Source: Streptococcus mitis 17/34 (GTDB taxonomy: Bacteria > Bacillota > Bacilli > Lactobacillales > Streptococcaceae). From it: DNA of 64,000 nucleotides. How positions within the stretch are numbered: position 1 is the stretch's first letter; each line of letters starts with the position of its first letter. The notes beneath the pieces were generated by a model. The model was not told the DNA's origin. It saw only the letters and a list, made by a program, of their open reading frames with translations, and did not search any database. The DNA lies in contig ASZZ01000005.1 of assembly GCA_000430305.1 (NCBI GenBank), positions 86,103 through 150,102 of the forward strand. Reading direction: 5' to 3'. Below are positions 35,444 through 55,938 of this stretch, piece after piece. The position numbers and the translations under genes are program-made.

Positions 35444-35555
35444 TACTCTTCGAAAATCTCTTCAAACCACGTCAGCTTTATCTGCAACCTCAAAGCGGTG
35501 CTTTGAGCAACCTGCGGCTAGCTTCCTAGTTTGCTCTTTGATTTTCATTGAGTAT
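35443..35555. repeat. BOX-type repeat after malP
   Basis: About 113 bases beginning ATACTCTTCGAAAATCTC and ending TTCATTGAGTAT. It is in the opposite orientation to the other two copies and has boxA and boxC only. Confidence 0.85.
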
Positions 35556-50381: not shown

Positions 50382-51082
50382 AGGAAATCTCCCTGTATGA
50401 TAAAGAAGTAGTAGTGAATAAATTGATTCAGTGGGCCTAAAATAGCAGAATCAGTCAGCAAAACTTGATAAGATTTTTGATAGGCCTCTAAACCTAATTA
50501 CGTATAGGATTTGGTCTTAGTTACTTAAACTGCTTTACAATCAAGTAATTAAAAGCTTACGACATGAGCCTAACCAAATCAATATTATTTGGATTGGTGA
50601 ATTAGTAAAGCGTTTAGGCAAATATCTCTGGTTACGACGTTCTGGGACATAAATCGATAATATTTATGTCCCAGAACTAGTGAAGCGCTTGGCCAAACAC
50701 CTGATAGGATTTGGCGTTAGTTACTTAGACTACTTTACAATAAAGTGATTAAAAGATTACGACATGAACCAAACCAAATCGATATTATTTGGTTAGATGA
50801 ATTAGTAAAACATTTAGACAAGTGTCTCTGATTACGACGTCATGGCTCCTAAATCGATTATATTTAGGAGCCATGGCTAGTGAAGCAGTTAGCTAGTCCG
50901 CATATAAGCGGCTAGCGTCTAACAATTAGGAACTTTAGTTCCAATAACTTTAAGATTACGACGTTTTAGGACATAAATCGATCATATTTATGTCCTAAAA
51001 CTAGTGAAGCGTTTAGGCAATTCGCCATATAGCGATTGCCGTCAAGAGACTAGGAACTTTAGTTCCAGTCTCTTGTAACGAT
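50382..51082. repeat. Tandem array of covarying hairpins
   Basis: A gene-free interval between argS and the 81-aa gene. Five A hairpins (50574-50592, 50639-50677, 50772-50794, 50839-50877, 50963-51001) share the loop region AAAT-CRATNWT-ATTT but have different, fully paired stems. They follow TTACGACRT and, mostly, precede CTAGTGAAGCG. Spacing alternates 75 and 125 bases, a 200-base unit. B hairpins (50488-50514, 50692-50715, 50892-50916, 51017-51039) and C hairpins (50517-50552, 50717-50752, about 50918-50950, 51043-51075) lie between. Order: B C A A, B C A A, B C A, B C. The family is not recognised. Confidence 0.85.
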
Positions 51083-52772
51083 TTACATCTTCTCTGGCGC
51101 TTCTACTCCGAGCAAGCGAAGGGATTCTTTGAGAACGACTGCAGTTGCGTAGCTGAGGGCTAGACGGCTGTCGCGTTCTGGACTTTCATCCAAGATACGT
51201 GTATGTGCATAGTACTTGTTGAAGGCTTGAGCCAGGCTAATTGCAAATTTAGCAATGATAGAAGGTTCAAAGTTATCAGCCGCACGGTTGATAATACGTG
51301 GGAAGTCTTGGATGAGTTTGATGATTTCCCAGCTTTCAGTATCATTCAAGCTATAGTTGCCAGTTGTTTCTGGTTTGAAATCGGCTTTGCGTAAGATAGA
51401 TTGGATACGAGCGTAGGCGTATTGAACGTAAGGTCCAGTTTCACCCTCGAAGGATACCATGGCCTCTAGGTCAAAGTCATATCCGTTTGTACGGTCAGTC
51501 TTGAGGTCATAGAATTTAATGGCTCCAACCCCAACAGCATGCGCCACCTGGTCTTTATTTTCAAGTTCAGGATTTTTAGCCTCGATTTGGGCTTTGGCAC
51601 GACTAACAGCCTCTGCAATTGTAGGTTCTAGCAAGATGACATTCCCTTTACGAGTAGAGAGTTTTTTCCCTTCTTTTGTAACCAAACCAAAAGGAACGTG
51701 AGTAATGTCTTCACTCCAATCGTAGCCCATCTCTTGCAAGACAGCTTTGAGTTGTTTAAAGTGGGCAGATTGCTCTTGACCAACGACGTAGATAGATTTA
51801 GCAAATTGGTATTCGTTTTTACGGTAAAGAGCTGCAGCCAAGTCACGTGTGATATAGAGAGTTGCACCATCAGATTTTTTGATGAGGCTGGATGTTCAAT
51901 TCCATATTTCTCAAGATTCACAACTTGGGCACCTTCTGATTCAACAAGAAGGCCTTTTTCAGAAAGAATGTCTACAACTGCATCCATCTTATCGTTGTAG
52001 AAGGCTTCTCCGTTGTAGCTGTCAAATTCAACCTTCAGTTCATTGTAAAGGCGGTTAAATTCCACCAAACTTTCATCACGGAACCATTGCCAAAGAGCGA
52101 GAGCTTCCTCATCTCCATTTTCAAGTTTACGGAACCATTCGCGCGCTTCTTCATCCAAGCTAGGGTCATTTTCAGCTTCAGCATTGATGCGGACATAGAG
52201 TTTAAGAAGTTCATCGATTGGATGAGCTTTTACAGCTTCTTCGTTGCCCCATTTTTTGTAGGCAACAATCAGCATCCCAAACTGTTTACCCCAGTCTCCC
52301 AAATGATTGACCTTGACCGTTTGATAACCGATTTTTGGAAAATATGTGACAAGCTATCTCCGATAACAGTTGAGCGCAGGTGACCGATAGAAAATGGTTT
52401 AGCGATATTAGGACTAGACATGTCGATCACAACATTTTCTTGTTTGCCAATATGTTGGTCAGCATAGTGTTCTTTTTCAGTGATAACAGCTTGCAATACT
52501 TGAGCAGAAATGGCAGATTTATCAAGGAAAAAGTTAACGTAAGGTCCTGTTGCGACAACCTTTTCAAAGGCTTGACTGTTAATTTTTTCAGCTAGTTCAG
52601 CTGCAATCATTTGTGGCGCTTTACGTTCGACTTTTGCAAGAGAAAAAGCAGGGAAAGCGATGTCTCCCATTTCTGAGTTTTTAGGGGTTTCCAGTAAATT
52701 TAAAATAGCCTCTTGGTCCAGGCTATCAATGATGCTAGCCAATTCGCTAGCAATCAATTCTTTTGTATTCAT
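51083..52772 (-). CDS. argS: Arginyl-tRNA synthetase (two apparent frameshifts)
   Basis: Class I synthetase with 'FSIGHLRS' (HIGH-like), 'KLSTRKGN' (KMSKS-like) and a C-terminal DALR anticodon domain. The frame breaks at 52333-52337 (A5 for A6, coding strand) and near 51886 (one C lost); restoring both gives 563 residues, the normal length. As argS is essential, both breaks are probably sequence errors. It is divergent from argR; the hairpin array begins 8 bases after its stop. Confidence 0.93.
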
Positions 52773-53357: not shown

Positions 53358-53390
53358 CTTGGGAGTTGCTCTCAAGACTTATTTTTGACA
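53358..53390 (+). terminator. argR terminator
   Basis: GGTCTTGGGA pairs imperfectly with TCTCAAGACT, followed by TATTTTT. It lies just before the mutS ribosome site. Confidence 0.6.
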
Positions 53391-53404
53391 AGGAGAGACG
53401 GAAA

Positions 53405-55938
53405 ATGGCGACAGAAAAGCTATCACCCGGCATGCAACAGTATGTGGATATTAAAAAGCAATATCCAGATGCTTTTTTGCTCTTTCGGATGGGTGATTTT
53501 TATGAATTATTTTATGAGGATGCGGTCAATGCTGCGCAGATTCTGGAAATTTCCTTAACGAGTCGCAACAAGAATGCGGATAATCCGATTCCTATGGCGG
53601 GTGTTCCCTATCATTCTGCTCAGCAGTATATCGATGTGTTGATTGAGCAGGGCTATAAGGTAGCTATTGCAGAGCAGATGGAAGATCCTAAGCAAGCAGT
53701 TGGGGTTGTTAAACGAGAGGTTGTTCAGGTCATTACACCTGGGACAGTAGTCGATAGCACTAAGCCGGACAGTCAGAACAATTTCTTGGTTGCCCTAGAC
53801 CGTGATGGCAGTCAGTTTGGCCTGGCTTATATGGACCTGGTGACCGGTGACTTTTATGTGACCGGTCTATTGGATTTCACGCTGGTTTGTGGGGAAATTC
53901 GTAATCTCAAGGCTCGAGAAGTGGTGCTGGGTTATGATTTGTCTGAGGCAGAAGAACAGATTCTCAGTCGCCAGATGAATTTGGTGCTTTCCTATGAAAA
54001 AGAAGGATTTGAGGATCTTCATTTACTGGATTCACGATTAGCAGCGGTGGAGCAAGCGGCAACTAGTAAGCTGCTCCAGTATGTTCACCGTACCCAGATG
54101 CGGGAATTGAACCACCTCAAACCAGTTATCCGCTATGAAATCAAAGATTTCTTACAGATGGACTATGCGACTAAAGCTAGTCTGGATTTGGTTGAGAATG
54201 CCCGTTCAGGTAAGAAGCAGGGCAGTCTTTTCTGGCTTTTAGATGAAACCAAAACAGCTATGGGCATGCGTCTCTTGCGTTCTTGGATCCATCGTCCCCT
54301 GATTGATAAGGAGCGAATCGTCCAACGTCAAGAGGTGGTGCAGGTCTTTCTTGACCACTTCTTTGAGCGCAGTGATTTGACAGACAGTCTCAAGGGTGTT
54401 TATGATATCGAACGTTTGGCTAGTCGGGTTTCTTTTGGCAAGACCAATCCCAAGGATCTCTTGCAGCTGGCGACTACCTTATCCAGTGTGCCACGGATTC
54501 GAGCGATTTTAGAAGGGATGGAGCAACCTGCTCTGGCCTATCTCATCGAACAATTGGATGGAATCCCTGAGTTGGAGAGCTTGATTAGTGCTGCCATTGC
54601 TCCTGAAGCTCCTCATGTGATTACCGATGGGGGGATTATCCGGACGGGATTTGATGAGACTTTGGATAAATACCGCCGAGTGCTCAGAGAAGGGACTAGC
54701 TGGATTGCTGAGATTGAGGCTAAGGAGAGAGAAAATTCTGGGATCAGTACCCTCAAGATTGACTACAATAAAAAGGATGGCTACTATTTCCATGTGACCA
54801 ATTCGCAATTGGGAAATGTTCCAGCTCACTTTTTCCGCAAGGCGACGCTGAAAAACTCAGAACGCTTCGGTACCGAGGAATTAGCCGTATCGAGGGAGAT
54901 ATGCTGGAGGCGCGTGAGAAGTCAGCCAATCTAGAATACGAAATCTTTATGCGTATTCGTGAAGAGGTCAGCAAGTACATTCAGCGTTTGCAGGCTCTAG
55001 CTCAAGGAATTGCGACGGTTGATGTTTTACAAAGCTTGGCAGTTGTAGCTGAAACCCAGCATTTGATTCGACCTGAATTCGGAGACGATTCACAGATCGA
55101 TATCCAGAAAGGGCGCCATGCTGTCGTTGAAAAGGTCATGGGGGCTCAGACCTATATTCCTAATACGATTCAGATGGCAGAAGATACCAGTATTCAACTG
55201 ATTACAGGGCCAAACATGAGTGGGAAGTCAACCTACATGCGTCAGTTAGCCATGACGGCGGTTATGGCTCAGTTGGGTTCTTATGTGCCAGCAGAAAGTG
55301 CCCATTTGCCAATTTTTGATGCAATCTTTACCCGTATTGGAGCAGCAGATGACTTGGTTTCAGGTCAATCAACCTTTATGGTGGAGATGATGGAGGCCAA
55401 CAATGCCATTTCGCATGCGACTAAGAATTCTTTGATTCTTTTTGATGAGTTAGGTCGGGGAACTGCTACTTATGACGGGATGGCTCTTGCACAGTCCATC
55501 ATTGAATACATCCATGAGCATATCGGAGCCAAGACTCTCTTTGCGACCCACTACCATGAGTTGACCAGTCTAGAGTCTAGCTTGGAACACTTGGTCAATG
55601 TCCACGTGGCAACCTTGGAGCAGGATGGGCAAGTTACCTTCCTTCACAAGCTTGAACCAGGTCCAGCTGATAAATCCTACGGTATTCATGTTGCCAAGAT
55701 TGCTGGTTTGCCAGCAGACCTTTTAGCAAGGGCGGATAAGATTTTGACCCAACTAGAGAGTCAAGGGCAAGAAAGTCTTGCTCCAATGAGGCAAACAAGT
55801 GCCGTCACTGAACAAATTTCACTTTTTGATGCACCTGAAGAGCATCTTATCCTAGCAGAATTAGCTAAACTGGATGTTTACAACATGACACCTATGCAGG
55901 CTATGAATGTCTTGGTTGAGTTAAAACAAAAATTATAA
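53405..55938 (+). CDS. mutS: DNA mismatch repair protein MutS/HexA (apparent frameshift)
   Basis: Starts at ATG 53405 (MATEKLSP) after GGAGAG. The mismatch-binding '[12 protein letters not shown]', Walker A 'GPNMSGKST' and Walker B '[12 protein letters not shown]' are present. The frame breaks near 54886, where restoring a C (GCCGTATC to GCCCGTATC) gives 844 residues, the length of pneumococcal HexA. It recognises mismatches in replication and in transforming heteroduplexes. If the frameshift were real the strain would be a mutator. Confidence 0.93.

Follow-up and report, generated by a model that had tools for sequence, protein, structure and literature searches.

The hairpin array located behind the argS gene of Streptococcus mitis 17/34 belongs to a new family of repeats that are structured, look mobile and resemble BOX and BIME in kind. 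Within the window (the whole stretch of 64,000 nt that was analysed), the array is one tandem expansion of this repeat family, whose first unit is locked to the argS stop codon. Covariation across homologues is strong, and one elaborate fold is kept while the sequence changes. The reading that we tentatively favour is that of a genus-wide, non-autonomous mobile repeat of approximately 125 bp, whose identity would lie in its fold and not in its sequence, and which would be recognised by a protein as a single strand and placed at stop codons.

The array behind argS

The array extends from about 50497 to 51085, between argS and a gene encoding a small membrane protein (50381-50136, minus strand). 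One end is formed by the argS stop codon itself (51083..51085, minus strand; TAA in the mRNA sense, defined from the ORF table and by stop anchoring), beyond position 51075, at which the initial annotation had closed the array; the other end, near 50497, was set by eye. That annotation had centred on a repeated hairpin. The array is real, and this hairpin (hairpin A) makes up one third of the repeat unit, to which hairpins B and C and a closing helix, P0, also belong. As argS and the downstream gene are both on the minus strand, the order in the mRNA is stop-C-B-A. The folding energy of the array is far beyond chance, both for RNA of the minus strand (z -14.9) and for DNA of the plus strand (z -20.3; 20 dinucleotide shuffles each).

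The argS gene was named by NCBIfam from a match of its C-terminal part, with a score under the whole-protein cut-off. The reading of argS (51083-52772) is split over several frames in the assembly, as is that of a mutS-like gene (53366-55938); since argS should be essential, its splitting possibly results from sequencing indels.

The five A hairpins stand in register at 50557, 50632, 50757, 50832 and 50956, with a spacing of 75/125/75/124. This agrees with the earlier description of an alternation of 75 and 125 bases and of five copies with different, paired stems, three of them perfect over 14-16 bp (50639-50677, 50841-50875 and 50963-51001); the other two, at 50557 and 50757, have imperfect stems.

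Unit 1 (50956..51086, minus strand; 114.7 bits in cmsearch) is complete, comprising C, B and A, and its match overlaps the stop codon. Its P0 begins 2 nt past this codon, with the 5' strand in the mRNA sense (CGTT) at 51077..51080 and the 3' strand (AACG) at 51010..51013, both on the minus strand and both defined from alignment A1 and covariation. Hairpin C (51043..51075, minus strand) consists of an outer stem, a single-base bulge, a 5-bp inner stem and, in the mRNA sense, a TAAA tetraloop, and hairpin B (51017..51040, minus strand) also contains a single-base bulge; the two were delimited from the sequence, the folds and A1. Hairpin A (50963..51001, minus strand) is an inverted repeat with a perfect 16-bp stem and a loop at 50979-50985. 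The unit closes with the constant end TTACGAC (50956..50962, plus strand; GTCGTAA in the mRNA sense), seen as a direct repeat and in A1.

The remaining units all lie on the minus strand. Unit 2 (50832..50953; 69.4 bits) and unit 3 (50632..50753; 61.9 bits), recognised by cmsearch and as inverted repeats, carry the perfect A stems of 14 bp (50841-50875) and 16 bp (50639-50677), respectively. They alternate with two truncated units, each composed of an imperfectly paired A hairpin and one half of B. One of these (50757..50830) was detected by cmsearch (34.7 bits) and from the repeats, and the other (50557..50631) is visible as a direct repeat and gave no cmsearch match at E up to 0.001. A leftover B-C pair lacking hairpin A, with limits set by eye (50497..50556), is part of the direct repeat of 50504-50693 with 50704-50893.

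The unit and its fold

Relatives of the unit, including single-copy units, were collected from two sources: a pattern scan of named genomes, which yielded 110 stretches (the 80 of these that were listed come mostly from Streptococcus, other genera contributing some chance matches), and a BLAST search of the genus with a 128-nt query, which matched 92 of 197 genomes. The unit comprises about 125 bases and reads, in the mRNA sense, stop codon, P0, hairpin C, hairpin B, P0, hairpin A and GTCGTAA, with P0 acting as the closing helix of a three-way junction around B and C. In the alignment of 17 units (A1), the stop codon is followed by P0, C (TAAA-type loop, a single bulged base), ACG, B (likewise with a single bulged base), CUA, the second P0 strand, CYUYACUAR, hairpin A with the loop AAAUANNAUCGAUUU, and GUCGUAA. 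The bulge that had been pointed out in the B hairpins of the window is real; inspection of the 17 aligned units by eye shows it in most of them. The pairing of P0, CGTT/AACG in the window, is replaced elsewhere by CAGT/ACTG, CGCC/GGCG, TGAGC/GCTCA, TCGAC/GTCGA, AGGC/GCCT, AGGCATC/GATGCCT and others (by eye).

In units anchored at stop codons, the stop codon marks the start, and GTCGTAA or a close variant the end. TAAC is frequent at both ends of the unit and is not universal; a target duplication is not demonstrated by these ends. The loop region of hairpin A contains, in many units and in the mRNA sense, the -10-like hexamer TANNAT, with TTCACT 16 nt ahead of it in three units of the window.

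Because A1 mis-registered short and long A stems, the covariance model (R1) was built on a smaller alignment, A2, of nine short-stem units, with a structure written by hand from the alignment. Covariation was examined in A4 (84 matches in other loci, which correspond to 81 distinct rows, and 3 of which equal seed units) and in A6 (119 matches from six genomes, corresponding to 76 distinct rows, with some units also present in A4). In A4, 89.3% of cells are paired, versus 57.6% in shuffled alignments and 34-42% when the structure is slid, and in A6 89.5% versus 51.7% and 31-42%. Cells with a double change number 1094 versus 318 (shuffled) in A4 and 1130 versus 341 in A6. The covariation score reaches 0.693 in A4 (0.182 shuffled, at most 0.120 slid) and 0.712 in A6 (0.159 shuffled, 0.112 slid). 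Since both alignments were fitted to the structure of R1, the slid control matters most. Pairs changed on both sides amount to 41 of 43 in A4 as well as in A6, a count which alone proves little, because the shuffles average 37 and 39. In P0 (helix 1) all five pairs are double-changed, with 82.5% of cells paired in A4 and 81.6% in A6. In substance, the covariation that the initial annotation had proposed to look for is strongly present, and its claim that the fold is kept by compensatory change holds. That the fold is thereby selected does not follow by itself, because template switching can produce such changes as well (PMC8794818).

Distribution in Streptococcus

R1 finds matches at E <= 0.01 in 108 of 118 Streptococcus genomes, among the best candidates scored per genome (29 at most), with 1 to 121 copies found per matching genome. 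When 150 candidates were scored, 121 matches were obtained in genome G098, 105 in G036, 37 in G043 and 13 in the window's own genome. Across the order, 20 of 148 genomes match, and all of these are Streptococcus except one, at E 0.0096. Tandem runs of two to six copies occur at 68 of 168 sites (G098 and G036 left out).

Relation to known repeats and RNA families

Rfam (release 15, gathering threshold) gave nothing on the array and one match elsewhere in the window, to the SpR10 sRNA family (53362-53408, 77.7 bits). In E-value mode, no family was placed on a unit in 16 further loci. A description of the unit was found neither in the literature, as covered by titles and abstract openings of open-licence papers without their supplements, nor in the parts consulted of PMC3049150, PMC2267715, PMC2828477, PMC6212727 and PMC8794818.

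The initial annotation had set the array apart from BOX, RUP and SPRITE, and the array is indeed unlike the BOX copies of the window. Three copies in the window with ATACTCAATGAAAATCAAA, which we take to be the BOX end sequence (14263, 27494 and 35537-35555), carry no unit. By the tests made, which concern the end sequences, the repeat is not a member of BOX. It is like BOX and the BOX-type repeats of S. suis in being small, modular, structured and intergenic, with a variable copy number and repeated inner modules, but unlike BOX it occurs in stop-anchored form without BOX ends and in 108 of 118 streptococci. Many units of G036 and G098 reside inside larger repeats with BOX-like ends, and such ends surround these composites only. 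BOX-type copies of G036 occur both with the unit (L269, L266) and without it (L268:779), and it therefore behaves as a separate unit. At loci L236-L275 of G098 and G036, units of two kinds face each other tail to tail across a shared core (AAAAGTGCGGACGCAAGCAAACTCC...), forming composites of about 400 bp (by eye). According to Croucher 2011 (PMC3049150), the BOX-type repeats of S. suis (RepSU1; boxE and boxF families) have modules of 115 and 133 nt; judged by this published description alone, these modules, being of similar size, may contain our unit.

REP and BIME elements of enterobacteria, associated with RAYT transposases, are palindromes near gene ends that form mosaics of units and may have a double role as mobile DNA and as mRNA stabilisers. 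Our repeat resembles them in its palindromes, often at gene ends, its mosaics and its possible dual role; it differs in having a three-way junction in place of a lone hairpin, in its exact anchoring to stop codons, and in the distribution of Y1 (HUH) transposases, which 27 of 59 genomes lack, the window's own with its 13 R1 matches among them. A transposase of the IS200/IS605 or REP-RAYT type is for this reason not an obligate partner.

Like SPRITE and intrinsic terminators, the unit places hairpins at gene ends. SPRITE is described in PMC3049150 as an 18-bp duplex with a long U-rich tract behind it, whereas GTCGTAA, without a U-tract, comes after hairpin A. RUP elements measure about 107 bp, have terminal inverted repeats and duplicate their target. 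Terminator-like sites in the array stretch number two, both in C hairpins, versus 0.6 expected, and promoter-like sites on both strands of the stretch number six versus 3.3 expected (sd 2.1); as explanations of the unit, terminators and promoters were rejected, as they rise too little above shuffles. The dispersed streptococcal RNA family SSRC8_2 of Rfam (RF02616) has a partial match near some grpE-dnaK copies. It is not the unit, being a different, neighbouring repeat that adjoins it about 110 nt away in L114 and L157. Although entered as an sRNA, SSRC8_2 behaves as a dispersed repeat, reaching 26 matches in a genome with no more than 26 candidates scored (e.g. L157:1736-1842, L182:1802-1909). 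The presumed mimicry of 16S rRNA involving GUCGUAAC is expected by chance at such a length and was dropped.

Position behind stop codons

The nearest upstream ORF has the same sense as the unit in 211 of the 221 matches that have one. For a count by site, arrays and identical copies were merged (262 arrays reduced to 228) and eight sites with less than 320 nt upstream were set aside. Outside G098 and G036, a sense ORF of 100 codons or more stops where the unit starts at 110 of 162 judgeable sites; the corresponding counts are 1 of 162 for the antisense end and 46 of 2963 for positions drawn at random. The dispersed copies of G098 and G036 mostly ignore genes (7 of 58 sites stop-anchored, versus 4 in the antisense control and 26 of 1068 random positions). 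Among the 117 anchored sites, 39 are at argS and 21 at grpE; two (C-termini SKLSHG and HFLSFN) may be due to chance. The anchored fraction is no genus-wide estimate, because the sample favours the best matches and repeats orthologues.

Seventeen gene families, as named by NCBIfam, precede units: argS, prfC, grpE, dnaK, groEL, pheS, parE, nrdE, obgE, ruvA, pyrF, lactose PTS EIIC/IIB, ftsX, a CorA-like transporter (under the curated cut-off), sufB, infB and an amino-acid ABC permease (for which the subfamily-domain cut-off alone was reached). Several units lie between co-directional genes, with grpE, dnaK, pheS, parE, nrdE, pyrF or lacE upstream; judging from the N-termini of the downstream partners, these are presumably the pairs grpE-dnaK, dnaK-dnaJ, pheS-pheT, parE-parC, nrdE-nrdF, pyrF-pyrE and lacE-lacG. 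Exceptions include units that lie, as we take the genes to be, close to msmG-gtfA and upstream of metK and that lack stop anchoring; the units of L398 and L400 are separated from the grpE stop by other sequence.

A fixed sense orientation behind stop codons is equally expected of a cis-acting mRNA element, and this counts against the reading that we favour. Such a 3' UTR element would fold behind the terminating ribosome and, in the manner of REP and BIME, shield or cut the transcript, so that flanking genes are expressed at different levels (e.g. grpE versus dnaK, pheS versus pheT). This explanation, which we regard as possible and still rather unlikely, draws on the strong excess of sense stop codons and on the copies between co-directional genes. 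It is opposed by the copies behind prfC, which lie between convergent genes in several loci, and by the indifference to genes of the dispersed copies in G098 and G036.

Gain and loss at argS and grpE

A search with ArgS matched 30 of 31 relatives, and R1 was run on 28 full-length ArgS loci. Units follow argS in four of 18 streptococci, those, the window's own genome among them, whose ArgS shares 95% identity or more. In the other 14 nothing above 23 bits lies behind argS; the match in L373, located 328 nt past the gene, scores 22.8 bits (E 0.0034). No units were found by R1 behind argS at the 10 loci of other genera. In G002 (L396), which has a degenerate ArgS match alone, R1 gave no match at E 0.001, and BLAST detected a match to the B-C part 12 nt behind the degenerate ArgS.

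At grpE, 30 loci include four with intact units, two with partial ones (L403, with an internal deletion, and L409) and two with remnants recognised by eye (L410 and L420); the site is empty in e.g. L401, L404, L405, L411 and L412. The initial annotation had regarded absence of the array from nearly all relatives, with decay where it is present, as an argument against its view. This applies in part: the array is absent from 14 of 18 argS loci, and decay is seen in four of the eight grpE loci that carry a unit or part of one. The repeat comes and goes. Relatives with filled and with empty sites are as expected for a mobile element, and the same variation between species at grpE and argS counts against an mRNA device.

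Among genomes that share 80-95% identity at the grpE end, intact grpE copies of the most frequent type share 95-100%; between L097 and L120 the unit is 100%, the grpE end 80% and the start of dnaK 90% identical. The better conservation of this copy than of its coding flank speaks for an mRNA element, and the high identity can reflect either constraint or recent spread. A second type of grpE copy (L135, L182) is 69-74% identical to the first, with its helices re-paired. Identity over the stretch from the unit to dnaK is 54-62% in many pairs; it was dropped as proof of constraint, and the coding flanks alone were used for the comparison, because this gap is a mosaic of other repeats. As seen by eye, a motif TTGTCCGAAACGACA / TGACCGAAATGTCA followed by TAAACTA or a similar sequence stands upstream of dnaK in many streptococci; it resembles a small hairpin and is present with or without the unit (e.g. 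L401, L404, L411, L418, L426). Another repeat (GGCGGTAAGTCAGAAATCTTTGATTTCGTTGACGCACCCCCGCAAGGG...) was noted in the grpE-dnaK gap of L407, L408, L409, L410, L420 and L427.

Which strand carries the fold

In a fold maintained in mRNA, G-U pairs are expected to outnumber A-C among the non-Watson-Crick pairs. On the mRNA strand of the unit, G-U occurs 85 times versus 137 for A-C (73 sequence clusters). The test retained 221 of 323 aligned matches (from A3, A4 and A5; A6 was not used), with cut-offs of 115 nt, 38 scored pairs and 75% Watson-Crick pairing; it is a modest one, as related copies are not fully independent. The G-U to A-C ratio is 23:38 in stop-anchored copies (p 0.07), 48:77 in copies not anchored (p 0.01) and 25:50 in the dispersed subset of the latter (p 0.005); array-internal and other copies have no bias (23:27, p 0.67). 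By helix, the ratio is 21:47 in A and 9:26 at the base of B, with the top of B (12:13) and C (34:38) unbiased; a separate count for hairpin A gave 14 G-U versus 30 A-C (p 0.02). Six tRNAs in the same data have a ratio of 12:0, in a set chosen by a tRNA finder that itself allows G-U and not A-C.

It seems to be the strand opposite to the mRNA that is held to the fold, or else no single RNA strand at all. As G-U is not favoured on the mRNA strand, an ordinary mRNA element is disfavoured, and it is mainly on account of this count that we place a DNA-level element ahead of it, with modest confidence. The unit is probably folded as single-stranded DNA. Of the options offered initially, a structured RNA, folded single-stranded DNA or a protein-binding array, each retains some probability, and the strand test leans to DNA.

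Possible mechanism and implications

In the mobile repeat that we favour, identity would be carried by the three-way junction (P0, B and C) together with the long hairpin A, its fixed loop and the fixed flanks. A cellular or transposon-borne protein would recognise the folded single strand, more likely the one opposite to the mRNA, and would place the unit directly behind stop codons, or keep it there, where it is harmless. A recognising protein was not found in the search made, which among transposases covered the Y1 type. The repeat would move as a unit, unequal recombination between units may give rise to arrays such as that at argS, and units could be lost again by deletion. Tracing strongly broken A hairpins to two known types succeeded in only two cases out of 12, which gives thin support to recombination at the loop.

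A purely mutational origin of the fold appears improbable. Template switching between the arms of a quasi-palindrome would copy one arm onto the other and create covariation without selection on the fold, which would suit the scarcity of wobble pairs of either kind and the replacement of whole stems around a fixed loop. The P0 strands are 4-5 nt long and about 65 nt apart, and their covariation is hard to explain in this way; neither are the fixed loop and flanks explained by a mutational process. Least probable of all is that the plus strand is transcribed into a folded antisense RNA, or that the array binds a nucleoid or replication protein as cruciforms in double-stranded DNA: a plus-strand fold would agree with the leaning of the wobble pairs, and the plus-strand promoter-like sites (50373, 50559 and 50759) are not clearly above chance.

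The repeat might even represent a new class of bacterial mobile elements, recognised through a three-dimensional single-strand fold whose sequence is free, and targeted to the stop codon itself. Such an element would insert in one orientation directly behind the stop codons of many unrelated genes, would spread through the genus without breaking them and would be carried on into BOX-type repeats; we consider this unlikely on the present data. The ratio of G-U to A-C pairs also offers a simple way of asking which strand of a structured repeat is read.

To conclude, Streptococcus gains a family of structured repeats, found by the model in the great majority of the genomes searched, with a wider spread than that reported for BOX; the repeats described in PMC3049150 are given there as almost absent outside S. 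pneumoniae and S. mitis, with those of BOX type also in S. suis. The anchoring at stop codons in 17 gene families is unusual and points either to a 3' UTR device of core genes, among them those for chaperones, tRNA synthetases and release and initiation factors, or to a mobile element with an unusual target.
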